The notes under the pieces are model-generated. The model made no database searches and was not told where the DNA came from. It worked only from the letters and a program-made list of their open reading frames with translations. Positions 18,641-34,141 of a stretch of 40,758 nucleotides of DNA are shown here, in pieces. Position numbers and translations under genes: made by a program. Source of the stretch: Coriobacteriales bacterium. Lineage in GTDB: Bacteria; Actinomycetota; Coriobacteriia; Coriobacteriales; UMGS124. Where the stretch lies: assembly GCA_017515595.1 (NCBI GenBank), contig JAFWFL010000039.1, positions 1 through 40,758 on the forward strand. The letters run 5' to 3'. Each line of letters starts with the position of its first letter. Positions within the stretch are counted from its first letter, which is position 1.

Positions 18641-19378
18641 TTAATGACATTGGAACCGTCCCCGATGTCTCAGTACCGTATTCTCTGATATTACAAGGTT
18701 TTCTGCAATATATGGCCTTGATCGTCCGTGTGCCAGCATAATGAGTACTTCTGTTTCTCGATCAGTCAGAGAATACTCTAAAGCAAGCTCTTTGCATCGC
18801 TGATCAGTATTTTGGCTTAAAGGCAACGAAGCCTGTAAGCCTGAAAGCAAATAATGATCTAATGAACGACAACCGCTTAATAAATAAGCCATTGCTATTA
18901 AAACCAATACCGTAATGTTAAATGCAATTTCTATCGTTATACTTGTCATAGTCGACCGAGAAACAAAGAACGCGATCCAAAAAGATGCCGATCGCAAAAT
19001 CCAACCGCAAGCAAAAACAATCAGTGCATCACGTTTTGTATGTTGACTCACATCAACCAATACAATCCAAAGAAACAGCGTAAGGGCGCTGTGGCTTACG
19101 TTTATAACAGTTCTCGAAAGGGGAAGCATTTCTGTTCCAAAGTTAGAAAAAGGTATAAATCCTGCAACAATGATAATCATAAGACATGTCGCTACACCTA
19201 AAATACTCAATCCGTGTTTACAGATAACTACCCACAAATAGATTGCAATAGCAATCGCAAATTCAATGAGATTGCTTAAGATATGATTAATAAGCGGATC
19301 CTCGTACGTCACCGTTTGCGGAAAACCATAAGACGAGTCAGGGGGACGGAGTCCCCCGTTCACCGGAGAACCTGCCAA
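18641..19378 (-). pseudogene. Membrane-type LuxR regulator, both ends lost at repeats
   Basis: About six membrane helices (LIEFAIAIAIYLWVVICKHG through ITVLVLIAMAYLLSG) are followed by the start of a LuxR HTH (LTDRETEVLIMLAHGRSRPYIAENLVISENTV). It resembles the many multi-TM LuxR proteins of Coriobacteriia, which are about 450-500 aa; here about 220 genuine residues remain. The HTH stops after ISENTV and continues as LRHRGRFQCH, encoded by GGGGACGGTTCC-type repeat sequence. At the 5' side the first ~17 residues are also encoded by repeat sequence (AGTCAGGGGGACGGAGT). Both truncation points therefore lie at repeats. It cannot bind DNA normally. Confidence 0.75.
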
Positions 19379-19843: not shown

Positions 19844-22800
19844 CTAGTAGTATATCTGGCGGGTTATACAGAAGTTCCCGTGCATGTCACTGATGATGCA
19901 GTAATAATCGCAGTATTCTCCCATGCTCTGCAATTCCTCATCAGGGCAATAGAGATCCCAACGCCTAAAATGCGCAATTTCGCCCGGCTCAGAGAAGTAG
20001 TCGATATATGCGGTTTCTACATGTTTGCGAGCGCCGGTATCGATGCAGCACAGCTGGACAACATAGGGCCCTCCTCCACCTTTGAACTCCAGGCTGATTC
20101 TGTAGTGCTCTTTATCGCTTTGGAGTGTCTGTTCCCACGAGACCACCTGGAGCGCATAGGGATGGGCCTCGTTGCTTGTGAGGCTTTCTCCGGTTACGGT
20201 ATTGGTGATGACACAGCGGTACCTAAAGCTGCTCCAGGCACGAACCGTTTCGCCATATCCCGCACAGACCCACTCCCCTAAGAGAGGATCCTTGACTTCC
20301 CACTTATATTCCAGGGTTTGTTCGCATATCGCATAACAGGTCACATGCAATGTGCTGTCGTTTTCATACACGCTTATGGGCTGCTGGACGATGATCGGCA
20401 TGGTGCCGTAATAATAGACCTTCACAGATTGTTTGGCGATGTTCCCGTTTGCATCTTTGGCGGTACATGTATACCGGCCTGTCCTACAAACCTGGATCGT
20501 GGCTGAACGCATGGAGCGGGTGGTCTCGTTGATAAAGCGGTAATCGCCAAGGAATTCATCATGTGTCCATTCGTAGGAAATGGATCCCGTCCCGTTTTTG
20601 GGCACTGCTTCCAGTGTGAGCAGGTCTTTGACATAGTAGTCATAGCTGAAAACTTCCGAACTGCTATTACCGTAGATGTCATAGAATTCGATGCCCGAAT
20701 CAGGGTAAGGGTCAAGGCCGGCCCGGTAATTACCCGATGCTTTGATAGAGATGGAGAATACGTCCGTGCCGCTATCTGTAACCGTCACTTTTTTAGAATC
20801 TATCCAGCGTCCTGTAGAATCCTCTACGCGGAAGAAATATTCCCCGGGCTCATATGCATATTTTTGACAGAACGTGATGTCCAGAAAGGCTTCGCCGCCC
20901 TTCTCTCTTAAGTCGGCGCTGCCATAGACCCTACCGTCTTTATAGAGGGTGTACTTCACCCATCCAAAAACATTGTATACACTGATAGAGAGGGTTATAT
21001 AACCGGACTCTCTTTTAGAGAGATCGCCACCCTCGGGTTGCCACCCAATCTGGATGGGCGCCTCAGGATCAGGATGTCTCAGGTAGTCGGTGCGAGCCCA
21101 CGGGACCGTAACCGTGATAGAGTCTGCCCAACGTCCTGTGGAATCCTCAACGTGGAAATAATACTCCCCGGCAAGGTTCATATAGACGGAGCATTCCAGG
21201 CGGTCGTCAGAATACGCTTCTTTCCTGATATAGTAACTAAGCTCGCCGTCCCTATAGAGATAATAGTCCATCCACCCTGTGCCTTCGGCCATGACGATCG
21301 ATAGGTATTTGGTGTAATAATCCTCCTCTGCTTCAGGCTGTTTCTCGATTTTGAGCTGTTTGGTTCTGTCCAAGACACGGGAACAATCAGTCTGTGTGTT
21401 GTATGAGTCGTCTGTTACCATGAGCCAGTATGTGCGTGCTTCTTCCGCCGGGTATGAGACAGTATATGCAACTCTCCCGGCAGCATATCCAACTCGACTG
21501 GGATTGCTGTATGTTACAGGTTCGGTCTCTGTGTACTCTTCGAGTATCCGTAGCTCTCCTGCTTCGTCCGTCGCCCATGTTATGGTGTAAGGCGGAATGC
21601 CGCCTTCGATGTGCATTGTGATATCTGCTGTGTCTTCGCCGGGGGTGATATAATAGAATTCCTGAGTGTGGCTGACCTTGAGTGGCATGGCGTCGTAGAC
21701 CGTTACCGTATTTGATGTGACAGACTCAACGCCACAGGAGACGACGCAGTAGTACCTACCTGTTTCTTCGATCTTATCCGTTGTTGTTTCGGAGGTCGAA
21801 TCGACAACGTCCCCATCGACTTTGTACCACTCATAGAGGTAATTCCCGCTTCCTCCCGACGCGGCGCAGGAGAGCTCGGCATGGGAATTGTCGCGAATCA
21901 CGGTGTTACTTGGCTGCAGGTAAATGTACAGGTTGTATTCCACCAAAACGGTATCGGTAGCCACCCAGTTGCCTTCGCTGTCGGTGATGACGCAGAAGTA
22001 ACTGCCCGCCGTTTTTGCAGTGTAGTCAGACGAGCCTTCATCATTGCTTTCTGTCTTTGCAACCGCACTGCCCATCTGGATCCGGGCCCAAGAGACCTGA
22101 GAATACAAGTCTTCCTGGGCAAGCTCTGAGCCAAGACCGGCGTGCGCGATGGCTGTCTGCATCTCAGATTTGACCGAGGAAGCTTTTTCAAAGTGCTGAT
22201 GTGTAAAAGCGTCGAGGCTTATACTGCCGAGAAGGTCGTCTAAATATTCATACTTTGCTGAGTGGCGGTTCGTCTCGCGCCGCCATTCAAAGGTGTAAGG
22301 CACCACGCCACCCTCGACCTCGGTGGTCAAAGTCAAAAAGCTGTCTGGGTTATCATAGCTGATCTTTCCGCCCAAGGGCTGAAGTACCACCACAAGGCCG
22401 TTACCTCCGTGGGTTCTCGGCGGGTCGCTACGGAGTAAGGAGAACAGGTCTGATGCGCTTTCGAGGGGTTGGATTTCGTCTGACGGAATGGTCCAGCCGT
22501 AGTCATCAAACGCAGACGTCTGGGCGCCGCCCGCGAGCCATGCCTGAAGTCCTGTCCAGCCAATGCCGGTAGAAGGATGTCCCGAGGCTTTCTCGGCAGC
22601 TTCTGTTGCGGCTTGGGTATTTGGACCAAATGAGCCGTCAGCTTCTCCGCAGTCAAAGCCGTTTTGGTTGAGAAGGACCTGGAAGGCTGTGACGGCATCT
22701 TCCTGGTCTTGAGGAAGAAGGGTACCTTCGAGATAATAGACAGCCTGCTCAGTGGTGCCGCAGACTGTGCATGTATGCTCTTGAGTGCCTGAAGACCAGT

Positions 22801-23359
22801 CAGTGGCAGGTGTGAGGATATACCACTCACCAAAGGCGTGGGGTGCTAAAGGTATAACTTCATCAAGCGTGTCCCCGCAGCGGGAGCATGTGCATCTTTG
22901 GATACCGGCTTCTGTGCAGGTGGCTTCTTGGATGACTTCCGTTACAACAAAGTCATGATCCAAAGCGGGCAGATATGCTGTCTCTTCTTCCCCGCAGCGT
23001 AAGCATTCCCGTGTTAATATACCTGCTTCTGTGCAGGTGGCTTCTTGGATAACGTCCCACTCACCCCAGTCATGGCCCAAAGCAGGTGTTGTGAGCGTGG
23101 TGGTATAACCGCAGCGGAGGCAGTGAACACGATAAACAGCTTCCTCTGTGCAGGTTGCTTCCTCAAGAAGCACTTCTCTGTCAATCCAGCTGTGAGCACC
23201 TTTTGTGGCAGGACAATAGTCATCGGTAGCCTGGGATATGGCAAGCGGGTCATCTCCCATAACAGCCCGTGCCGCAAATGCCGCAGGCGTCACCCCCACC
23301 AAAAGCGCCAGTGTGAGCGACAGAGACATCACAAGAGATAACAGTTTATGTCTCTTCAT
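19844..23359 (-). CDS. Large secreted surface protein: CxxCG ribbons, PG-binding-like domain, Ig-like repeats
   Basis: 1171 aa. A Sec signal peptide (1-29, ends AFAA) comes first. Residues ~46-205 hold four ~35-residue units of the form EATCTEAG...C-x2-CG...PALxHDW, a ribbon-like repeat seen in gut bacterial surface proteins. A peptidoglycan-binding-like domain (AVTAFQVLLNQNGFDCGEADGSFGPNTQAA, ~222-252) follows. The rest is a string of Ig-like beta repeats, including GEYFFRVEDSTGRWIDS and RYYCVVS units. No LPXTG or C-terminal helix is present, so retention would be through the PG-binding domain. GAGGAA lies before the ATG. The 5' third is nearly identical to the gene starting at 28155. It lies downstream of the response regulator on the same strand. 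Its ligand is unknown. Confidence 0.85.
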   Translation of the reverse strand: MKRHKLLSLVMSLSLTLALLVGVTPAAFAARAVMGDDPLAISQATDDYCPATKGAHSWIDREVLLEEATCTEEAVYRVHCLRCGYTTTLTTPALGHDWGEWDVIQEATCTEAGILTRECLRCGEEETAYLPALDHDFVVTEVIQEATCTEAGIQRCTCSRCGDTLDEVIPLAPHAFGEWYILTPATDWSSGTQEHTCTVCGTTEQAVYYLEGTLLPQDQEDAVTAFQVLLNQNGFDCGEADGSFGPNTQAATEAAEKASGHPSTGIGWTGLQAWLAGGAQTSAFDDYGWTIPSDEIQPLESASDLFSLLRSDPPRTHGGNGLVVVLQPLGGKISYDNPDSFLTLTTEVEGGVVPYTFEWRRETNRHSAKYEYLDDLLGSISLDAFTHQHFEKASSVKSEMQTAIAHAGLGSELAQEDLYSQVSWARIQMGSAVAKTESNDEGSSDYTAKTAGSYFCVITDSEGNWVATDTVLVEYNLYIYLQPSNTVIRDNSHAELSCAASGGSGNYLYEWYKVDGDVVDSTSETTTDKIEETGRYYCVVSCGVESVTSNTVTVYDAMPLKVSHTQEFYYITPGEDTADITMHIEGGIPPYTITWATDEAGELRILEEYTETEPVTYSNPSRVGYAAGRVAYTVSYPAEEARTYWLMVTDDSYNTQTDCSRVLDRTKQLKIEKQPEAEEDYYTKYLSIVMAEGTGWMDYYLYRDGELSYYIRKEAYSDDRLECSVYMNLAGEYYFHVEDSTGRWADSITVTVPWARTDYLRHPDPEAPIQIGWQPEGGDLSKRESGYITLSISVYNVFGWVKYTLYKDGRVYGSADLREKGGEAFLDITFCQKYAYEPGEYFFRVEDSTGRWIDSKKVTVTDSGTDVFSISIKASGNYRAGLDPYPDSGIEFYDIYGNSSSEVFSYDYYVKDLLTLEAVPKNGTGSISYEWTHDEFLGDYRFINETTRSMRSATIQVCRTGRYTCTAKDANGNIAKQSVKVYYYGTMPIIVQQPISVYENDSTLHVTCYAICEQTLEYKWEVKDPLLGEWVCAGYGETVRAWSSFRYRCVITNTVTGESLTSNEAHPYALQVVSWEQTLQSDKEHYRISLEFKGGGGPYVVQLCCIDTGARKHVETAYIDYFSEPGEIAHFRRWDLYCPDEELQSMGEYCDYYCIISDMHGNFCITRQIYY

Positions 23360-23390
23360 GGCGTTGTTCCTCCTTCCTTACGTACGATGG

Positions 23391-23474
23391 ATTGGGGACA
23401 AGAGGACGGGGTTCGGTTTCCTTCGTCTTTTCTGAGAAAGGGACGAGAGGTACCCCCGTCCTCTTGTCCCCAAT
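23391..23474. repeat. GGGACAAGAGGACGG palindrome
   Basis: Perfect 21-bp arms (23391-23411/23454-23474) around a 42-base interior. It sits between the response regulator and the surface gene. It begins exactly where similarity to the leader of the paralogous gene (28155-28190) ends, so insertion or recombination here replaced the ancestral promoter. Confidence 0.85.
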
Positions 23475-23483
23475 CGAAATCCG

Positions 23484-24134
23484 TTATCCTTTTACGCGGT
23501 CCGCGTCGCTGACTACAATTCCCACGCGGGATGCTTGAGCCGCAAGGGCTGTGCGGGAATGAATGCCTGATCTCTCCATCAGGTCATCTATGTAGTCATT
23601 CACGGTGTTAGAACTCAGGTTGAGTTCTTTGGCAATCTCACGGTTCGAAAGGCCTTCCATGAGGAGCCTCAGGAGACTCCGCTGCTGTTTTGAGAGGTCA
23701 GAGGCAGCGAGGTTGCCCAGCTGAACAGCCGGAGCATTCTGCGGATACACAAACTCCCCGGCCATGGTGCGGTCCATAACCTCGAGCAGGGAGATATCAG
23801 AAGACGCCTTGAACCAGAAGCTCTCGATACCGGCTTCCCGGGCTTTGTCGAGCCAGTCTGCATCAGCCATGGAAGTGGCGATCATAATTTTGACAGACGG
23901 ATGTTCCTGCTTGATTTTCTCGGCAGCGGTTAAGCCGTCAATACCCTGAGCCATCATGACATCCATGATAATCAGGTGTGGCAGAGGGTTCTCTTCGCAC
24001 CAGGCAAGCACGTCCTGTGCATACGGAAGCACCGCGGCAATCTCATAGCGTTTGGAGGGCTTAATGAAGAGTTCCATATAACCGCGGGAAATCATCTCGT
24101 CATCCACAATGACAACCCTGTACAGTTCATCCAA
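23484..24134 (-). CDS. LuxR/NarL-type response regulator
   Basis: Two-component response regulator. The receiver domain runs from YRVVIVDDE to ~125, with the phosphorylatable Asp in LIIMDVMM and the signalling Lys near WFKASSD. A C-terminal LuxR HTH follows (LSKQQRSLLRLLMEGLSNREIAKELNLSSNTVNDYIDDLM). The frame is open to 24164 with only TTG/ATG options. The TTG at 24134 is preferred because GAGGTGGGG lies just before it and the receiver fold begins four codons later (216 aa). The likely partner kinase is encoded at 31134-32480. Its promoter carries a palindrome shared with the surface-protein gene at 28155. Confidence 0.88.
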   Translation of the reverse strand: MDELYRVVIVDDEMISRGYMELFIKPSKRYEIAAVLPYAQDVLAWCEENPLPHLIIMDVMMAQGIDGLTAAEKIKQEHPSVKIMIATSMADADWLDKAREAGIESFWFKASSDISLLEVMDRTMAGEFVYPQNAPAVQLGNLAASDLSKQQRSLLRLLMEGLSNREIAKELNLSSNTVNDYIDDLMERSGIHSRTALAAQASRVGIVVSDADRVKG

Positions 24135-24271
24135 CCGACCCCACCTCATTTCTCTGGCTACCAAAGAAACCCGGCCTGCTCAAAACAACGGACGCAGGGC
24201 TATCCCCGGGGATTACTTCTTCCCAAAGCCCCACGGAATAGGATACAGTTATCCCTGCCCACTGTTCTCTT

Positions 24272-24320
24272 TGTAGTGTATCAGAAACCAATTTTTGTTT
24301 TTACCCCCCAAATGGGGGGT
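24272..24320 (-). promoter_or_regulatory. Operator-promoter of response regulator (shared design)
   Basis: Read on the minus strand: ACCCCCCATTTGGGGGGT (24320-24303), then 20 bases, then GATACACTACA (24282-24272). The same arrangement, with the same 20-base spacing, precedes the surface gene at 28155. No -35 consensus is present and the palindrome would be centred near -44, fitting a class II activator site. Inference: it is bound by the response regulator itself. Confidence 0.7.
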
Positions 24321-24330
24321 ATTTGCCCAG

Positions 24331-24396
24331 AGTCAGGGGGACGGAGTAATTTGGCTCACAGGTACCTATGAGCCAAATTACTCCGTCCCCCTGACT
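24331..24396. repeat. Perfect 28-bp-arm palindrome
   Basis: Arms 24331-24358 and 24369-24396 are perfect complements with a 10-base loop. The outer 17-mer AGTCAGGGGGACGGAGT also occurs at 19336-19352. It follows the 24433 gene, so it probably ends that transcript, and it sits 10 bases from the regulator's operator. Confidence 0.9.
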
Positions 24397-24432
24397 ATAA
24401 ACATGTCCCTTTGACACATTCTCCTTGGTGCA

Positions 24433-25323
24433 CTAAGCTGCTGCGGTGGTGAGACCGGAGGGGGCTTTTGCCAGATAGATGGTCATCTCACCGGTGGGAG
24501 AAGTGAGAGTCATACGGAGGTAGTTGTCTTTTTGGAGGACAATCTCAATCGAGAGGGCATCACCCACGGTTGCTGACAGGGTACCTTCTGAGAAGGTGAA
24601 GTTCACAAAGACGTCTCCAAAGAGTTCGCCGCCTAAAGCTACACGCTCGCCTTCAATGTAGATATCGGTATTGTCACCCATGGCTGAAGCCGCAACGGGA
24701 GTTCCGCTCAGGCTTACGTATGAGCTCTTCCAATATCCTGCAAAAGCATCAAGAGGAGCGGATGGGTCAGCTGCGGCAGGAATGTAGGCGGCTGGTTGTG
24801 TACGATAGAAGACAATATCGGCAGCTGTCCATACCAGCAGCTCTTCCTCTGATGCGACCGAGAGAGACTCGGTTGAATCAGCTGAGGCGGACTCTGCGGA
24901 ATTGCCGGGGGTTGCTTCGGCGGAGGCGGCAGCAGCGGGTTTCTCGGCATCGGCAGGAGTTGCCACTACAGCATCTTCAGCGGAGTCCTCAGCGGGTTCC
25001 TGGGCATTACTTGCGCTATATACCGCACCGGTAGTGAGGTTTAAGGGCGAAGTATCGTCGCCGTCAAGCCATACAAAACCGTCACGCTGTTCCCAGGTGC
25101 CTTTGTGAGACTCATTGGGAAGGGCAGAAGAAACAAGGGTATAGGTACCGTCTTTGGCTAAGGTCAGCTCAAGAGGAACGCCGCTTAAGTCAGCATACCA
25201 GTTGCCTTCTGCGCTTGCGGGAGGCTCGTTCAGTCCAAGGACTTCGGCTTCCTGTGCCATTGCGGCAGGCAGAGGGAGCAATACTAAGACAAACGCCAGC
25301 AGCAGTGCTAGGTATTTCTTCAT
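24433..25323 (-). CDS. Secreted Ala-rich protein with two lipocalin-like halves
   Basis: 296 aa, starting at MKKYLALLL with AAAGGAG eight bases upstream; an in-frame start at 25401 is rejected. A Sec signal peptide ends about AMAQEA. A domain with GNWYADLSGVPLELTLAKDGTYTL...GTWEQRDGFVWLDG and a second with FAGYWKSSYVSLSGTPVAASAMGDNTDIYIEGERVAL look like two related beta-barrel halves of the kind used by small secreted lipocalin-like proteins. They are joined by a ~55-residue Ala/Glu/Ser linker. Function unknown. By position it belongs with the surface-protein locus. Confidence 0.75.
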   Translation of the reverse strand: MKKYLALLLAFVLVLLPLPAAMAQEAEVLGLNEPPASAEGNWYADLSGVPLELTLAKDGTYTLVSSALPNESHKGTWEQRDGFVWLDGDDTSPLNLTTGAVYSASNAQEPAEDSAEDAVVATPADAEKPAAAASAEATPGNSAESASADSTESLSVASEEELLVWTAADIVFYRTQPAAYIPAAADPSAPLDAFAGYWKSSYVSLSGTPVAASAMGDNTDIYIEGERVALGGELFGDVFVNFTFSEGTLSATVGDALSIEIVLQKDNYLRMTLTSPTGEMTIYLAKAPSGLTTAAA

Positions 25324-25355
25324 GACAGTTTCTCCTTTCATTGTTGGGTACAGAA

Positions 25356-25389
25356 CATAAGGTATCCCCGTGAGTAGCGATACCTTATG
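25356..25389. terminator. Hairpin overlapping stop of second surface gene
   Basis: Perfect 11-bp arms CATAAGGTATC/GATACCTTATG (25356-25366/25379-25389). The right arm contains the stop codon of the 25385 frame. Confidence 0.7.
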
Positions 25390-28155
25390 ACCGTCCGGCA
25401 ATTGTTAGGCCGTAACTCACGGTAGCGGTATCTGTGACCACCTGGTTGCCTTTGCTGTCGGTGATAATGCAGAAGTAGTCACCCGGTGTTGCTACGAAAT
25501 AAGCAGAGGTATGCTCGGAGCTGTTGACGGTTGCTACAACCGTGCTGGCCATCTTAAGCAAAGCATCCTGTATGCGAGATTCAAGGCTATTCTCGACAAG
25601 GTATTCTTGCAGAGTTCTTCCGGGTTCCCTATACCCAGCAGCTTGCTGCATGTGTGATTTGATTGATGATGCCTGCGCGGTGAACTGTTCCGAGAAGGAG
25701 CTGGGATCTATCGTGCCTAAAAGTTCGTGCGCGTAGTCTCTTTGGGCAGAGGCCCAATCTGTCTTACGCCGCCATTCATAGGTATAAGGTGCAAAACCGC
25801 CTTCTATCTGCACTGTGATGGCATAGGTATTGCGGGAAGAGCCGTCCTTAGGAATGATACCTCCCGATGGCTGCTGAGTGACATCGAGCTGTTTGACGAG
25901 CCGGCTGCCAAGCAGTTCTCCGTCCTGATTGTCTGTATGGGGTTTGGCGGTTCCTGAAGGTGCACTAAATTTTGGGGTAGTAACGGTAACTGTGTCAGAA
26001 AGTGCCCGGCGGCCTACAAATTCGCGTACAAAGAAGTAATATTCACCAGGCTGGTCAACGGTTATTTCACAGTGCAGCGGATCGGAGCCTTCCCCGGTTG
26101 ATGTGTAATGAGTGTAATATTCGTTGTCTTTGTAAAGAGTAAACGCGAGCGAGTTAAAGGTAGACGGTGTGGTGTTCGCTACCGTGATGCTGAGTGTGTA
26201 TTGGTATTTGCCGGCATTGACAGAGAGTACACCACCTTTGGGCTGTTCTGTGATAATAAGCGGTTCTTCAAAAGAATAACCTGTGATCATAACCGTAATT
26301 GGGTCGGAATCTGCCCAGCGCCCGGTAGAATCCTCTACATGGATGTAATACTCACCGGGATAAAAGACAGTAAAATCACAGTACAACCGGTCGGGATCAT
26401 CACTGTTTTTCGCGATAACCTCTCTGTCTAGTTTGCCGTCTTTATAGAGCCAATACTTCATTGATCCCGTACCGTCAGCCATAGTGATACTGAATTTCAT
26501 ATAACTGGGTTTAAGTCCTATAGTGCCACCCACAGGCTGCACTGCTATGGTAAGACCGCCGTCCGCATTGTTTTGCGGCCAACGCATGGTGTCTGCAGAA
26601 GGTTCGCTTGATTCCTGTTTGGTGACGGTTACTGTATCAGAAAGTGCACGGCGGCCTGCGAATTCCTTTACATAGAAGTAATACTCACCAGGCTGGTCGA
26701 CAGCTATTTCGTGGTGCAGCGGGTCGGGGTCATCTTCGGGTGTTTCATAAGAGGCGTATAATTCGCCGTCTTTATAAAGATCAAACGTCAACCAGTTTAC
26801 AACGCTTGGTTTCTGTTCGCTATTGTGATGCAAAGTGTGTATTTGCCGGTAACCTTAGAGAGCACACCGCCTTTGGGCTGCTCTGAAATAACAAGTGGTT
26901 CATCATATGTATACCAAGGGGTCGTAACCGTAAATGGGTCGGAATCTACCCAGCGGCCCGTAGAATCCTCTACATGGAAGTAATACTCACCGGGGTTTCT
27001 GGCTTGCCATTCGCAGTATAACCGGTCAGGATCATCGCCGTCTTTCTCGGTAAACCCCCCGTATATTTCTCCGTCTCGATAGAGCCAATACTTCATTGAG
27101 CCTGTGCCGTCAGCCATCGTAATACTGCACTTGTAATAACCAAGTACATTCGACAATTGCCCGCCCTCGGGCTGCACTGCTATGGTAAGACTATTCTCCT
27201 TAGCGTTTTGCGGCCACCTTAAGCGAAGCTTATTGAACAGGTCTGCCGCGCTTTCAAGGGGCTGGGCTTCGTCTGATGAAGTAGTCAGGCCAAAGTCATC
27301 GGAATCAGGTTCCTGTGTGTCGCCCGCGAGCCACGCCTGAAGTCCTGTCCAGCCAATGCCGGTTGGGTCATGGCCTGAAGCTTCCTCGGCAGCTTCTGTT
27401 GCGGCTTGGGTGTTTGGTCCGAATGAGCCGTCAGCCTCTCCGCAGTCAAAGCCGTTCTCGTTGAGAAGAACCTGGAAGGCTGCTACGGCATCGCCTTCGT
27501 CCCACAGGAAAAGGGTACCATCAAGATAATACTCTGCTTGCTCTTTTGTGCCGCAGACTGTGCATGTGTGCTCTTGTGTGCCTGCTGACCAGTCGGTAGC
27601 TTCTGTAAGAACGTACCACTCGCCAAAGGAGTGAGGCGCTAAAGGCGTAACTTCATCAAGTGTTGTCCCGCAACGGGAGCATGTATATCTTTGAATGCCT
27701 GCTTCTGTACAGGTAGCTTCCTGGATGACTTCCGTTAAGATAAAGTCATGATCCAAGGCAGGCAGATATGCTGTCTCTTCTTCTCCGCAGCGGTCGCATT
27801 CCCGCACTAATATACCCGGCTCTGTGCAGGTGGATTCTTCGATAACGTCCCACTCGCTCCAGTCATGGCCTAAGGCAGGCGTAGTAAGCGTGGTGGTATA
27901 GCCGCAGCGGCCGCAGTGGACACTATATAAGGCTTCCTCTGTGCAGGTTGCTTCTTCAAGAAGTACTTCTCTGCCATCCCAGCTGTGGGCGCCCTGTGTT
28001 GCAGGGCAATAGTCATCAGTAGTCTGCTGGGTAGCAGACAACAGGCTGTCTCCCATAACAGCTCGTGCCGCAAATGCCGCAGGCGTCACCCCCACCAAAA
28101 GTACCAGCGTGAGCGACAGAGACATCACCAAAGATAACAATTTCTGTCTCTTCAT
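25385..28155 (-). pseudogene. Second surface-protein paralogue, split by a frameshift
   Basis: Close paralogue of the gene ending at 19844: almost the same signal peptide, four CxxCG ribbon units, PG-binding-like domain and Ig-like units. The first frame (28155-26797, 452 aa) ends ...YTLCITIANRNQAL. The next frame (26833-25385, 482 aa) continues NSEQKPSVVNWLTFDLYKDGELY. In the internal repeat the corresponding string is YTLSITVANTTPSTFNSLAFTLYKD, so a single indel near 26800-26830 breaks one ~920-aa gene. No long homopolymer lies at the site, so slippage-type phase variation is unlikely. The N-terminal product could still be exported with its ribbons and PG-binding domain. Confidence 0.82.
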
Positions 28156-28210
28156 GGCGTTGTTCCTCCTCCTTACAAACGATGGTCAGAACTCAAGAGA
28201 TAGCGCATGC

Positions 28211-28258
28211 TGTAGTTTATCAAATATCAAATACCGGTTGTACCCCCATTTGGGGGGT
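28211..28258 (-). promoter_or_regulatory. Operator-promoter of second surface gene (shared design)
   Basis: On the minus strand: ACCCCCCAAATGGGGGT (28258-28242), exactly 20 bases, then GATAAACTACA (28221-28211). It matches the response-regulator promoter at 24272-24320 in palindrome, spacing and -10 region (10 of 11 bases). The start codon lies 56 bases downstream of the -10 block. Confidence 0.72.
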
Positions 28259-28280: not shown

Positions 28281-28339
28281 GAGGACACAGATACGGTTCT
28301 TCTTCCAAAAGAAGGCAAAAGAACCGTATCCGTGTCCTC
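28281..28339. repeat. GAGGACAC-type palindrome / terminator
   Basis: 21-bp arms (28281-28301/28319-28339) with one mismatch and an inner CTTC/GAAG stem. It is 8 bases past the stop of the propeller gene, so it should terminate the sensor operon. Confidence 0.8.
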
Positions 28340-28347
28340 GCGTCTCG

Positions 28348-31125
28348 CTAATAGGCGTACACCAGCTCGAGCTTATCGCTGCCAATCACTGTTTGGTATA
28401 CACGGCTTTCGATGCGTGTGTATCCTGCGCGCCAGCCCACGTCTTCTTCGTGGTTGCGGGCACAGCGGTGCACCGTGATGTAGGCAACGTCACCCACAAC
28501 ATCAACCGCATCCATAAACGACATCTCGGCGCCGTCCTCGTTCGCACCTTCAAACGAGAAGTCCTGCATATGGACATATCCCTCTTCATCAAACCGGGCG
28601 GCTGAAGCAACCAGGTGGTAGCGGGCGAGGCCGTCATCAAGCAAAACCATGAGGTCGCCGTCGATAAAGGCGTAGCTGTGTGCGCCGCTGAGAACAAACG
28701 ATGGATCAGACGCCGGGGCCTTCTCGCCTGTTTCAACATCGACTGACCAGATGGTCCCCGAGATCCAGGGCTGCAGGTTTGAGCCTGCGCCTGAGTATTC
28801 GCTGTCGGCAAGGTAGTAGAGGCGATGCGTGCCGGCGACCGTCCCGCCTTCGCCGTCATCAACCGGGTCGGCGGCGATCACCACCATGTCCGAACCCATA
28901 ACATCCCCTTCAAAGGGGCTAACCAGCATCTCGAAGGCGCCCATTCCTTCCAGAGGAATGCGGGCGGCACCGCCCTGGCTGTAAAAGAGACCCGTACCTG
29001 CGACGTTGGCAAACGAGATGTAGAGCCAGCCAAATTGAACCTGTGCGCGTACCGAGAGCCCGCCCGAGGGGTAAGCCAGTGCGTAGACCGTGCCGAGGAA
29101 TGTGTCATCCGTGCCGTTATAGCGCACCGATCTGACATGGACGCTGTACGATTCATCATCATCCTCGGCATGCCGGTAACAGTAGTAGACCATGCCGTCG
29201 TAGGCGCAAAGCGGCATGGGAGAATCGCCGTCCTGCTTACCGGCCAGGGTTGTGACAGCACCGTCTTTATCTATACCCACCATGGTTCCGTCAATCGTAC
29301 ACACAAAAACGCCCGAAAGGTCGTCGACAAAACACCCGTTGTAATGCGTTCCTATGCTCAGCGGCTCGCCGCCGTCGAGGGGCAGCCGCATCATCTCAGA
29401 GCCGTCGTGTCGGTAGAACAGGCATCCGTAGCTGAACCACAGCTGCCCGTCCGCGGCGTCGCGCAGCAAGACCTTCTCGGCACCTTGGGCATTGCGGCAT
29501 ATGAGATCGTTCTCGGTGCCGCCTTCGCGTGAGAACGCGCCATAGATGCCGGTTGATTGGACCGAGGTTTCAGAGAGGCGCCAATAGTACACGTCGCCGC
29601 CCGTACCCACAAAGAGGCCACCGTTATTGAGCACGCCAATCCCCGTGAAGAGGATGGGCGGCAAGGCGTTCTGGTACGAGGAGAGCTTCTTCGACACGCG
29701 GCCGTACCACTGACGGGCTTCTTCAGCATTTGAGCTGTTGATGAGCGAGAGAAGCCCGGCGTCCTCGGCGACAATGGAGTAGATTGAGTATTCACCGCGC
29801 AGGCGGCATGCTACAAGAAACTCGGCGATATGGACGTATTCGTCCATGGAGTCCCACACACCCACGGTACCGCGAAACACTTCAAAAGTTCCTTCGAGCA
29901 GCGCTAGTTTATCCACAAGTACGGCGCTCACGTCGTAGATGGCGCAGAGCTGGCGCAGGCGCAGAATGAGGTCCTCGCCGCCCACCGCAACGTCTCCGAT
30001 AAGCGTGCCAATCTTTGTGCCGAGATCCCACGAATCCTGGAGGAGGTTGAACCGCGTGAGCACGTAGTCAAAGCGGTCGACGAACTTCGTAAAGGAGCCG
30101 CCGTCCCGGTAGTTGTTGGATTGCTTGAGGAAGGGAATGAGCGCGTCATCAAAGAGGGTCTCGGTATAGCCGGGCAGAGTGCGGCCCACCGTTTGGACAT
30201 CGTTGTCCACAATCAGCTTGAGCCTCGCCTCGAAGGCGGTCTCGAGATCTCTGTCCACTTCGCGAGCGGCTGCGGCGAGGTCACCCCCGCTTGCTTCTGC
30301 GATGGCGTCAAGCAGATAGGTGTAATCGGCATAATTCTTGCAGAGCGCCGTCAACCTGCGCACCTCGTCGATGCTGCCGTTGATACCGTCCACGGTGTTC
30401 GCGAGAAGGTCAATCGCGGCAGCCAGGCCGTCTTGGATTCCTGTTGTGGGCTTGACTCCCGTGTACACCGTTATGAAGTCCGCCCCCATCTCAGCGATGT
30501 CGGTCAGGTAGTCCGTCCCGGTCTTGAGATCATCAAGTGAACGCTGGTAGAGCACATCGCCGGAGTTTTGGGCATCGTAGGTGGCAATAAGATCCACGAG
30601 CACCTCAACGTAGGTGTCTTTGTCAGGCTCGTTGGAACCCGTGTGTACAAGGAAGTCAGCGAGGTTCACCGCGAAGTTCGCGAGTTTGTTCTGACGGTAT
30701 TGGACCACGAACGAGGGATAGGCATACACAGAGTCGGTCATGAGGGTGTCGCTGTACATGTCGATGAATGCCTGGAGTAGGCGTTCGTTACGGGCGAACT
30801 CCTCGGTAGGCTGATGATCGACTTCAAACTCAGTCTCGACGTATTCTTTGACCTCGTCCGGGATGAGAATTTGCACGAAGCTCGAGACAATGCCATTACC
30901 TGCAAACGCACGCAGCGGAGAAGACCCCAGAGCAGTTGCTGCGACCAGCATTGAACTTCCGGCCAAGAACGCCCGGCGGGTTTGAGGCTGAAAAACGTTG
31001 AAGGCCGATGAGATGTCCTGAGATGGAGAAGCATGTCCCTCCGGCTCAAAACCTTCCGGCACGACCCGTTCCTTCAACGCAAGGTCCTTTGGCCTATTCC
31101 CTGCGATTTCCTCTGCATGACGCAT
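28348..31125 (-). CDS. Secreted Tat-like protein, helical N-half and beta-propeller-like C-half
   Basis: 925 aa. An unusually long N-terminal leader (~45 residues) precedes QTRRAFLAGSSMLVAATALGSS, a twin-arginine-type signal. Residues ~85-480 are mainly helical with long heptad-like segments. From ~490 to the end are repeating strands (GGLFVGTGGDVYYWRL, GCFVDDLSGVFVCTIDGTMVGIDKDGAV, GMVYYCYRHAE) like DUF5050-type propeller repeats. The start has AGGGGGGA just upstream, 8 bases after the kinase stop, so it is co-transcribed with the sensor pair. GC content is visibly higher than in neighbouring genes, hinting at a different origin. A ligand-sensing role beside the kinase is inference. Confidence 0.75.
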   Translation of the reverse strand: MRHAEEIAGNRPKDLALKERVVPEGFEPEGHASPSQDISSAFNVFQPQTRRAFLAGSSMLVAATALGSSPLRAFAGNGIVSSFVQILIPDEVKEYVETEFEVDHQPTEEFARNERLLQAFIDMYSDTLMTDSVYAYPSFVVQYRQNKLANFAVNLADFLVHTGSNEPDKDTYVEVLVDLIATYDAQNSGDVLYQRSLDDLKTGTDYLTDIAEMGADFITVYTGVKPTTGIQDGLAAAIDLLANTVDGINGSIDEVRRLTALCKNYADYTYLLDAIAEASGGDLAAAAREVDRDLETAFEARLKLIVDNDVQTVGRTLPGYTETLFDDALIPFLKQSNNYRDGGSFTKFVDRFDYVLTRFNLLQDSWDLGTKIGTLIGDVAVGGEDLILRLRQLCAIYDVSAVLVDKLALLEGTFEVFRGTVGVWDSMDEYVHIAEFLVACRLRGEYSIYSIVAEDAGLLSLINSSNAEEARQWYGRVSKKLSSYQNALPPILFTGIGVLNNGGLFVGTGGDVYYWRLSETSVQSTGIYGAFSREGGTENDLICRNAQGAEKVLLRDAADGQLWFSYGCLFYRHDGSEMMRLPLDGGEPLSIGTHYNGCFVDDLSGVFVCTIDGTMVGIDKDGAVTTLAGKQDGDSPMPLCAYDGMVYYCYRHAEDDDESYSVHVRSVRYNGTDDTFLGTVYALAYPSGGLSVRAQVQFGWLYISFANVAGTGLFYSQGGAARIPLEGMGAFEMLVSPFEGDVMGSDMVVIAADPVDDGEGGTVAGTHRLYYLADSEYSGAGSNLQPWISGTIWSVDVETGEKAPASDPSFVLSGAHSYAFIDGDLMVLLDDGLARYHLVASAARFDEEGYVHMQDFSFEGANEDGAEMSFMDAVDVVGDVAYITVHRCARNHEEDVGWRAGYTRIESRVYQTVIGSDKLELVYAY

Positions 31126-31133
31126 AATCCCCC

Positions 31134-32480
31134 CTAAACCTCGCCGTGCGAAAGTGGTTCGTCATTTGAAACATCTAACAGTATGGTGAGCAGAAATACA
31201 GGAGCACTTTGGACAGTCATGGTGCCGCCTACTTCTTCTACGGATTTGCGGAGAGTGACGAGGCCGCCGGTTTCGGTGATGGGACCTGCGGGAGGGCGGC
31301 CGTTGTTGGTAAAAGCAACCGAAACCTGAGAATCCTCCTGGGTAATTTCCACGTCCAAGTGGTCACCGCCGGCGTGGCGCACGGCATTGGCGGCACATTG
31401 CTCAATGGCCTGGGCGAGAAGGACCCGGAACGTTGCGCTTTGGGGGAGCTCTCCTTTAATCTCAACATGAGCTCCTATCTGCCGGGCTGCCTTGAGTGCT
31501 TCTTGCAGAAGGTCCTTATCTTCTTCCGGTTGCTGAGCCTCGCGAAGAAGGTAGTCGTTGTTATATTCCAACAGGTGAAGGAGCTCGTCTTCTTTGACGT
31601 TTTCAGGGTGGTCGAGATAGTATTTTCCTGATAATAAAACGCCGCCCATCCGGTTGTGAACCGTTACCCTTGCATTCATAACTTCCCTGGCAGCTAAGAG
31701 ACTTCGTTCCTGGGCAGCCACCGTTTTCATGCGGTCTTGCACCTCTTTGAGGTGCCTGTTCTTTTGGGACAGCTCCTGCGTAATTTGATACTGTGCGGTC
31801 ATGTCGGCCGCCGTGAGCTGGTCATATTCTTTACCGTCAAGGCTGATTGTGCTCTTGGTAAACTGCCATGTTTCACCGGAGGGAGTGTGCACCAGGCAGC
31901 TCTTGGCTGACTGCCTGTTGAAAGATGTTTCCGCAACATGTGTTTTCTCGGCAGCAGCTTTTTCAATAGAGTGCCCAAACCGTCCCGCATCACTTAACAT
32001 CTCGCCGGTCACTTCTCGGCAAAGCTCGTTCATTTTGAGATTCGAGAGAAGTACTGTCCCATCTGAGCCACTCACCATAAGGGCAGTGGGGAGGAGGTCT
32101 ATGGTTTCGCGAATTGCATCAACGGTCAGGTGTGTGTCCCGGTACCTGCGGTTATATACCCCGTAGAAACAAATAACCACCGCAGAAGAAATACCAAAAC
32201 CGGCATAGAGAAGCCACGGCAGAGATAAGAATTCCAGTTCAAAATCATAGATGATCTCCGGGGGATTCTCAATCAGGACATTGTAAGAGTAATCCAAAAG
32301 GACCGACAAGAGGAAGAAGCCCACAACAAAATGCAGCAAAGACAGGAGGAGCAGCACACTGCTGAGTCTCTGTTTGAATGTCCTAAAAAGAACAACAGAC
32401 TGTGTAGCCGTAAGCAAAAGGGTTGCAAAGTAAATGATATATCCCGGAAGGGTGCCAACAATGCTCTGCATAGAACTCAT
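31134..32480 (-). CDS. Sensor histidine kinase
   Basis: 448 aa. Three to four N-terminal membrane helices come first, then a PAS-like segment (IRETIDLLPTALMVSGSDGTVLLSN) and a coiled linker. The phosphoacceptor-like stretch is ARVTVHNRMGGVLL, and a GHKL ATPase domain follows with QCAANAVRHAGG (N box), TNNGRPP (G1; Asp replaced by Asn) and ETGGLVTLRKSVEEVGG (G2). It should phosphorylate the LuxR-type regulator at 23484-24134. The start overlaps the upstream sensor gene by 4 bases, which indicates co-translation. Confidence 0.82.
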   Translation of the reverse strand: MSSMQSIVGTLPGYIIYFATLLLTATQSVVLFRTFKQRLSSVLLLLSLLHFVVGFFLLSVLLDYSYNVLIENPPEIIYDFELEFLSLPWLLYAGFGISSAVVICFYGVYNRRYRDTHLTVDAIRETIDLLPTALMVSGSDGTVLLSNLKMNELCREVTGEMLSDAGRFGHSIEKAAAEKTHVAETSFNRQSAKSCLVHTPSGETWQFTKSTISLDGKEYDQLTAADMTAQYQITQELSQKNRHLKEVQDRMKTVAAQERSLLAAREVMNARVTVHNRMGGVLLSGKYYLDHPENVKEDELLHLLEYNNDYLLREAQQPEEDKDLLQEALKAARQIGAHVEIKGELPQSATFRVLLAQAIEQCAANAVRHAGGDHLDVEITQEDSQVSVAFTNNGRPPAGPITETGGLVTLRKSVEEVGGTMTVQSAPVFLLTILLDVSNDEPLSHGEV

Positions 32481-34141
32481 GCCGCATCACCTCCCAGGTC
32501 AAATTTCATAACCAGCTGGCCGTCTTCGCAGGACTGACGCATAGGGATAGGAAGCTCCGGCAGCTCGAGAGGTTTCTCGGCATCTGCCATAATGAGAAGT
32601 TCATGATCCTGAAGGCAAATATAGAGGTTCGCGGTTTTCCCCAGCAGTGCTTCTGCAGCCGCTTCAAAGCAGTCGTAAACATCCATAGCCTTGCGGCAAG
32701 GGAGCGGGTTCTGAGCCTTCATATTCACAACGGCGTACGTCCCGCAGTAGCGGAGGTAGTGCGAGGACTCCTCCATGGCAGAGGCGAGTTCTTTTGCCGA
32801 GACGGTTTCCCTCTCGGCCTCCACCAGAACAAAATTTGCCTTACGCTTGACGTACGCAGTAAGTACCAGGGCTTTCTCAATATCAGGCCTGAAGGATTCC
32901 GTGTTGGGCTGCGCGTGCTCAAGGATCCCTGCAATCTTCTTTTGCACGGGATAGATTTCCTGCGCTGCTTTTTGATAGGCCCGGCTTCGCTCCTCAACCG
33001 CGGCTTGCTCGGCCAGAAGCTCCTGTTCCCGAGCAAGGACTTCGTTCTCTTGCAGGAGCTCCGTATTGGCATTTTGCAGCTCATTGTTCAGACGGTGTAC
33101 CGCGCTTTCATCTTCTTCGCGAAAAGCATAACCTGCCAGGATATCCATACCCAGAAGACGGGTATCCGCTGCAGGGTAAACCGGCGCCGCCAATGATTCT
33201 CTCAGCTGCTCCGCCGTTGCCCGAACGGGAGACAGTGTATGAAAAGCTTCGTTCAGTTTTTTGTCTGTAATGAGAACCGGAAGGTCCATCTGGGCAAAAA
33301 AACCGGGATAATTCTCATTACAGGGGATCAGGCGATTCTTGATGCAGGCTTCAAAAACACCAATCAGGCAAAAAATAATAACCTGCCCGTATTCAAACAG
33401 ACGGTAGTTCTTGGGAAGAATGTTTAAAAGAATAAGCAGAATCGGTATAAGAGCCAAGAAAAAGATGGGCCAGAGGGCTTTTTTCCAGCTGCCTCTTTTT
33501 TTACAGGCGGCAAGCAAAAAGAATATCCCCGCTATCATGGTACATCCAACCCAAGCATACGCAGCATAATAGAGGATGCCATGCGTATAGGTATTTGGCC
33601 TGCCGGTCAGGCCCGCCATGCCCTCATTAGGCAGAACCGGTTGATCATGCAGGATACCCTCGTTTGGGATGAACGCCAAAAGATGCAGGTCGTTAGTCAT
33701 AATGCCCAAGACCAAAAGCAGCGCGGGAACAAGCAGGAGCATCTCTTTGCCGACCCTCTTTTGCCGCTCTGCTCCTCTGTACAGACAAATACAGGTAATT
33801 AAAAAGAGCGTTGGTATGAGCAGGGTCGGGATATAGAAGATATACCAACAATACCTGATCATACCGGGCACAATGGCAATGCGGTACTTTGTGACCTGCG
33901 CGGCCACAAACAAGAGCATGAGCGGCGCGGCTGCCAGGAGATACCCTTTTGCCCGGGTGGGCAGCAGCCTATCTTTAACTGACTGCATCCAAAACAGAAT
34001 CAGGCCGGCATAGATGAGGTATTCGGCACAAAAACAAACGGTATTCATGAAGTGGTCAGTGATGCGATCAAAAAGATGCAGGCAGCCTGCCAGCAGAAGA
34101 AGAATTACAAACAACAATGTACTTTTATACTGTTTCCCCAT
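32477..34141 (-). CDS. Multi-TM sensor protein, kinase-like but without catalytic domain
   Basis: 554 aa. Residues 1-265 hold about eight membrane helices, like a 7TM-type histidine-kinase sensor region. A PAS-like piece, a coiled coil (NNELQNANTELLQENEVLAREQELLAEQAAVEERSR) and a dimerisation-like helix pair (QEIYPVQKKI) follow, where the usual His is absent. The C-terminal region (VLTAYVKRKANFVLVEAE) lacks N, G1 and G2 boxes. It is probably a sensing partner of the kinase encoded 4 bases downstream, forming a hetero-complex (inference). GGAGG lies eight bases before the ATG. It is the first gene of the 34141-28348 operon; no copy of the C6/G6 operator is found upstream. Confidence 0.7.
   Translation of the reverse strand: MGKQYKSTLLFVILLLLAGCLHLFDRITDHFMNTVCFCAEYLIYAGLILFWMQSVKDRLLPTRAKGYLLAAAPLMLLFVAAQVTKYRIAIVPGMIRYCWYIFYIPTLLIPTLFLITCICLYRGAERQKRVGKEMLLLVPALLLVLGIMTNDLHLLAFIPNEGILHDQPVLPNEGMAGLTGRPNTYTHGILYYAAYAWVGCTMIAGIFFLLAACKKRGSWKKALWPIFFLALIPILLILLNILPKNYRLFEYGQVIIFCLIGVFEACIKNRLIPCNENYPGFFAQMDLPVLITDKKLNEAFHTLSPVRATAEQLRESLAAPVYPAADTRLLGMDILAGYAFREEDESAVHRLNNELQNANTELLQENEVLAREQELLAEQAAVEERSRAYQKAAQEIYPVQKKIAGILEHAQPNTESFRPDIEKALVLTAYVKRKANFVLVEAERETVSAKELASAMEESSHYLRYCGTYAVVNMKAQNPLPCRKAMDVYDCFEAAAEALLGKTANLYICLQDHELLIMADAEKPLELPELPIPMRQSCEDGQLVMKFDLGGDAA

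Follow-up and report, generated by a model that had tools for sequence, protein, structure and literature searches.

The window, by which we mean the whole 40,758-nt stretch of DNA that was analysed, carries on its minus strand a gene for a NarL/FixJ-family response regulator (RR; 23484..24164), assigned from its Pfam matches (Response_reg, 1.3e-16; GerE, 1.4e-14) and from the alignment of its orthologues. As expected for the family, the protein has the acidic pocket and the phospho-acceptor Asp of a receiver domain, with the motifs VDDE and LIIMDV, together with a GerE/LuxR-type HTH. Given that homology begins only at about residue 11, the true start is probably a TTG near 24131-24134. Surface gene 1 (19844..23359, minus strand) encodes 1171 aa with a signal peptide, CxxC repeats, a PG_binding_1 domain and Ig/SprB-like sequence. 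It has no operator of its own and is probably the second gene of the RR operon, read from the RR promoter, a point that is missing from the initial annotation. A membrane protein encoded beside it (18641-19378) has a C-terminal LuxR-type HTH that is apparently truncated (GerE 2-40 of 57).

Surface gene 2 (25385..28155, minus strand) encodes a secreted Ig-like/CxxC-repeat protein and is paralogous to surface gene 1, at 78% over 335 aa from the N-terminus. A frame break at about 26797-26833 divides it into overlapping open reading frames (26797-28155 and 25385-26833), with reading resumed in the other frame; the break is either a true mutation or an assembly error. A small secreted protein gene with the signal peptide MKKYLALLLAFVLVLLPLPAAMAQ (24433..25401, minus strand) is probably cotranscribed with it. 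On the same strand, a histidine kinase gene (31134..32480) encodes N-terminal TM helices and a HATPase_c match just under the curated Pfam cut-off (2.3e-5), and its orthologues lie beside the RR. It is joined by a gene for a 7TM protein (32477..34141, minus strand), recognized from its HisKA_7TM N-terminal region (Pfam, 9.4e-8) and from its orthologues. Between the kinase and surface gene 2 lies a gene for a Tat-signal-like protein (RRAFLAGSS) of no known family (28348..31125, minus strand), which is a putative member of the system.

Upstream of the RR gene is a C6-ATTT-G6 palindrome, ACCCCCCAAATGGGGGGT as read on the plus strand (operator 1, 24303..24320, minus strand), and upstream of surface gene 2 is a C6-AAAT-G5 palindrome, ACCCCCATTTGGGGGGT (operator 2, 28242..28258, minus strand), one arm of which is C5 on the plus strand. 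On the minus strand, the terminal T of the palindrome is followed in each case by exactly 20 bases and then by GATACACTACA at site 1 (24282-24272) or GATAAACTACA at site 2 (28221-28211), and the window contains no further exact match to GATAMACTACA. The initial annotation had described the twin palindromes, the GATA(C/A)ACTACA blocks and the 20-base gap between them, and each is confirmed here at its position. The blocks are better read as extended -10 elements, namely TGATACACT (TG-A-TACACT; 24275..24283, minus strand) at the RR promoter and TGATAAACT (TG-A-TAAACT; 28214..28222, minus strand) at the surface gene 2 promoter; their TGn, which had gone unrecorded, helps to explain the absence of a -35. 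No -35-like hexamer is present at the proper spacing in either promoter, and the -10 hexamers, TACACT and TAAACT, are imperfect. The offset from the dyad axis to the -10 is 31 at site 1 and 30 at site 2, a 1-bp difference that exists because site 2 has lost one G, the arm-end gap being 20 in both. Taking the predicted starts as 7 nt after the -10, which puts them at about 24268 and 28207 on the minus strand, the dyads fall at about -43.5 (site 1) and -42.5 (site 2), such that both operators are centred near -42 and overlap or replace the -35, as is typical of class II activation. The class II layout that had been proposed is therefore right: a dyad at about -43 and an extended -10, without a -35. 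Three long, near-perfect inverted repeats (24331-24396, 28281-28339 and 23390-23475, with arms of 33, 26 and 22 nt) adjoin each promoter and lie in the interval between the RR gene and surface gene 1; some have GGGGAC/GTCCCC-type ends that recall REP-like elements, and no T run follows them.

A collection-wide search returned nine RR orthologues (L022-L030; 58-76% identity), all from Bacillota MAGs and mostly from ruminant gut. The palindromes upstream of the RR are CCCCCCAGTTGGGGGG (L022), CCCCCCATCTGGGGGG (L023), CCCCCGGCCGGGGGG (L024), CCCCCCAGCTGGGGGG (L025), CCCCCATTTGGGTGG (L026), CACCCAGTTGGGGGT (L027), CCCCCAGTTGGGGG (L028) and CACCCGAAGGGGGGG (L029), and L030 has a copy with a single arm. 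Each of the nine orthologues is preceded by the palindrome or a decayed form of it, followed by a -10 hexamer 30-32 nt on (offsets of 29-32 from the dyad were allowed in the scan), mostly with TGn. An extra copy of this type, hereafter the A type, is L075 in G401, with ATACCCGACTGGGTAG and a -10 at an offset of 31; one or both palindrome arms are decayed in L029, L030 and L075. An operator at the RR's own promoter, which is what autoregulation calls for, is kept in all nine, two of them with decayed arms. The initial annotation had held that absence of the palindrome near orthologous regulators would speak against its model; we looked for such absence, and found the palindrome recognizable in all nine at the same distance from the -10.

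It could be argued that the palindromes belong to the preceding genes as terminators or RNA hairpins, or that they arose by chance. They are GC-rich and intergenic, and in G399 (A type) a second palindrome (L064), located before a gene for a secreted Ig/LRR protein and with TATATT at an offset of 31, is followed by T6 and may itself be a terminator. However, the sequence after each of the window sites is A-rich or mixed, with no T run, and the window palindromes are not among the matches of the terminator scan. Furthermore, the kinase genes of L022, L023 and L026-L028 have a terminator-like hairpin of their own ahead of the palindrome, the L025 palindrome sits between divergent genes, and a fixed distance to the -10 would be meaningless for a terminator. 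As for chance, none of 300 shuffled upstream regions equalled the observed score at either window site, and shuffles of the orthologue upstream regions matched the combined score in 0/300 cases (1/300 for L029). We reject the window palindromes as intrinsic terminators or RNA hairpins, as the combination of a GC stem and a T run is not found, and regard this explanation as a whole, chance included, as extremely improbable.

The motif is also rare. CCCCCN4GGGGG occurs at three sites in the whole 3.30 Mb draft genome, two of which are the window operators, and its reversed control has no match in the same genome. The longer pattern CCCCN4GGGGN20-24TGNTANNNT has nine matches in the nine RR-holding genomes (reversed control, 0), and seven of these are at the window locus or its counterparts: the two window sites, four RR promoters (G397, G398, G399 and G403) and a second kinase locus in G401. 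Of the remaining two, one is a CRISPR repeat of the genome that contains the window, and the other is an unrelated match in G402. The CRISPR-type repeats, GTCGCGCCCCGCGCGGGGCGCGTGGATTGAAAC (L089; G000:C119, at about 43481), resemble the operator by chance. In G398, the genome of L023, CCCCCN4GGGGG has about 60 matches on many contigs (e.g. L056); these were rejected as operators, being mostly CCCCCGTGCGGGGG, apparently a dispersed repeated element. At L065 in G401 (G401:C11:80500-91000), a second 7TM-kinase pair has an A-type operator and -10 at about 5070; the 10.5 kb stretch holds no RR gene, and a secreted-type frame without a clear start comes next.

RRs at about 43-46% identity form branches separate from the A type. 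Among them, the RR or locus promoters of a B type carry the operator TGGGCCG-N2-CGGCCCA (AAAATGGGCCG-N2-CGGCCCATGAC) or a recognizable version of it, with a -10 at the A-type offset. This operator is found in L032, L034, L045 and L047, which form one clade (support 100/100), as well as in L031/L048 and L070, where the RR is cut off. The A-type RRs are likewise a single clade (support 100/99), and all have the C/G operator. In the RR alignment, the recognition helix reads SPNTVKDYxDDLM in the A type versus SPHTVKRHIENML in the B type. When the motifs were cross-scored, A-type upstream regions did not match the B motif, nor B-type regions the A motif, save for a few weak cases. Several RRs at about 45% identity (L035-L043) show no clear palindrome, and in some of them the RR lies directly behind the kinase. 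Operator and recognition helix thus switch together, which ties the palindrome to the RR. This co-change is the best available evidence, drawn from sequence comparison, on which protein reads the palindrome, and it strongly suggests that the RR does; the link between the two, which had previously been assumed, is supported by it. The alternative is that another, unlinked regulator binds the palindrome and controls the locus, given that the RR-DNA link is itself inferred. Yet the site travels with the RR gene from order to order, hardly occurs anywhere else in each of the genomes, and changes its sequence when the recognition helix of the RR does; an unlinked regulator is very unlikely on these grounds.

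Almost every A- and B-type locus combines the 7TM protein, the kinase and the RR, arranged in this order or, as in L025, divergently, several of the contigs in this survey being cut short. With the exception of L029, where neither a kinase nor a 7TM orthologue was found near the RR on the available stretch, the A-type loci have a conserved kinase adjacent to the RR. Behind the RR, L025 (2612 aa), L026 (2879), L028 (~1190), L029 (1515) and L030 (2803) each have a gene for a very large secreted protein, and L022 has one for a relative of the window surface proteins. The order in the window fits this A-type pattern, with the RR leading to surface gene 1 and the paralogous surface gene 2 having its own operator. 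Few genomes offer a counterpart to this second operator ahead of a surface gene; they are G408 and G409, both of the B type, and G399 of the A type. In G409 the second operator, which has a correctly spaced TATCAT, is located about 1 kb downstream, just before a gene for a secreted protein (MKQKLLTILALAALMMALCCGTALGDSPSFTHQPSGGTVVPDGG...). In G408 the sole operator lies between the kinase gene and a gene for a secreted protein (MKRNLFVIPVLVALLLVFCCGAAPADGPSFICQPTCG...), and the RR comes further downstream. In both cases, the B operators precede secreted Ig-like genes whose proteins resemble the QPxGG repeats of the window surface proteins.

Taken together, our results make it likely that the palindrome is the RR's own operator, and that the RR carries out class II activation of its own gene (plus surface gene 1) and of surface gene 2. 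An RR dimer, presumably phosphorylated, would bind the 6-4-6 inverted repeat, the centre of which lies at about -43, abut RNA polymerase at the extended -10, -35-less promoters, and recruit it by class II activation. From site 1 the RR would activate its own gene, a positive autoregulation that would reach surface gene 1 through read-through, and from site 2 it would activate surface gene 2. The signal would enter through the 7TM protein and the histidine kinase. Phosphorylation dependence, positive feedback, read-through and the start sites themselves are all predicted features of this scheme. The initial annotation had a LuxR-type RR activating itself and the surface gene; of this, the operator is indeed kept with the RR, while the choice of activation over repression is deduced from the promoter layout.

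Conversely, the RR may bind but repress, by blocking polymerase at the extended -10 until phosphorylation (or its absence) lifts the block. An operator at -43 next to an extended -10 that possibly works without a -35 is compatible with occlusion, and there is a clostridial example in CD1688 of C. difficile, an RR whose own operon goes up on its deletion (PMC9380558). Nevertheless, the window promoters lack a -35 and have imperfect -10s, and the 30-32 nt offset is tight across orders and across two operator types, which contact with polymerase demands, whereas occlusion would tolerate other distances. Repression is hence an unlikely reading, and activation is suggested instead.

The proposed activation has known parallels. 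ComA of Bacillus subtilis, which has the same HTH type, binds an inverted repeat of two hexamers 4 bases apart, n=4 being the optimal spacing, and the ComA box (TTGCGG-N4-CCGCAA) is, like the sites here, a 6-4-6 repeat upstream of the polymerase site (PMC4797271). By analogy, the RR may bind its 6-4-6 repeat as a dimer. The half-site is CCCCCC here versus TTGCGG for ComA; ComA promoters usually add a direct repeat, and ComA controls about 20 genes, in contrast to apparently two promoters here. DevR/DosR of Mycobacterium tuberculosis is likewise an RR of the NarL subfamily, and at its target promoters the promoter-proximal box overlaps the -35 (PMC3029386); class II activation may operate here as it does there. 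DevR controls about 48 genes (PMC4973870), with multiple boxes, whereas single sites, another sequence and another sensor are found here. The recognition helix of DosR contacts bases through Lys179, Lys182 and Asn183 (PMC4082495). This base-contact region is the one that differs between the A- and B-type RRs. If the DosR helix reads TVKNY, as we take it to do, the residue that matches Asn183 would be Asp in the A type but Arg in the B type, which offers a lead. By sequence, the closest solved full-length relative is VraR (phmmer E 2.8e-16), which shares the common two-domain RR architecture, although its sequence is distant and its partner proteins are different. In our literature searches, no account of this locus, of the operator pair or of the target type came up. 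The proposed mechanism is of an ordinary, known kind, and the gene cluster seems to be undescribed.

Among 60 relatives, only the window's genome has the full motif, because a close RR orthologue is absent from the others; it is the gene that is missing, not the operator. No close RR orthologue is present in the window's family (three genomes), and the best one in its order (397 genomes) is 41% identical. The RR relative at 76%, on the other hand, comes from a genome assigned to an order that has no listed members in common with that of the window. This contrast points to horizontal acquisition. Searching two other orders for close RR orthologues added only L075, and viral_contigs yielded no relative. 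As a tentative extension, the cluster could be a portable, self-contained surface-protein switch, in which a 7TM sensor, a kinase and an RR are combined with very large secreted proteins, one or two in number, and insulated by a private operator that is near-unique in each host genome, with a positive feedback that could render surface-protein expression all-or-none; operator and recognition helix would have moved together as the cassette spread among gut bacterial orders.

For a gut-bacterial signalling locus that would control very large secreted proteins, sequence alone thus points to the DNA site, the target genes and a likely mechanism. The model lends itself to easy testing, as it involves two promoters and sites that are nearly unique, and the A- and B-type helix-operator pairs provide a natural data set on the change of DNA specificity in NarL-type regulators.
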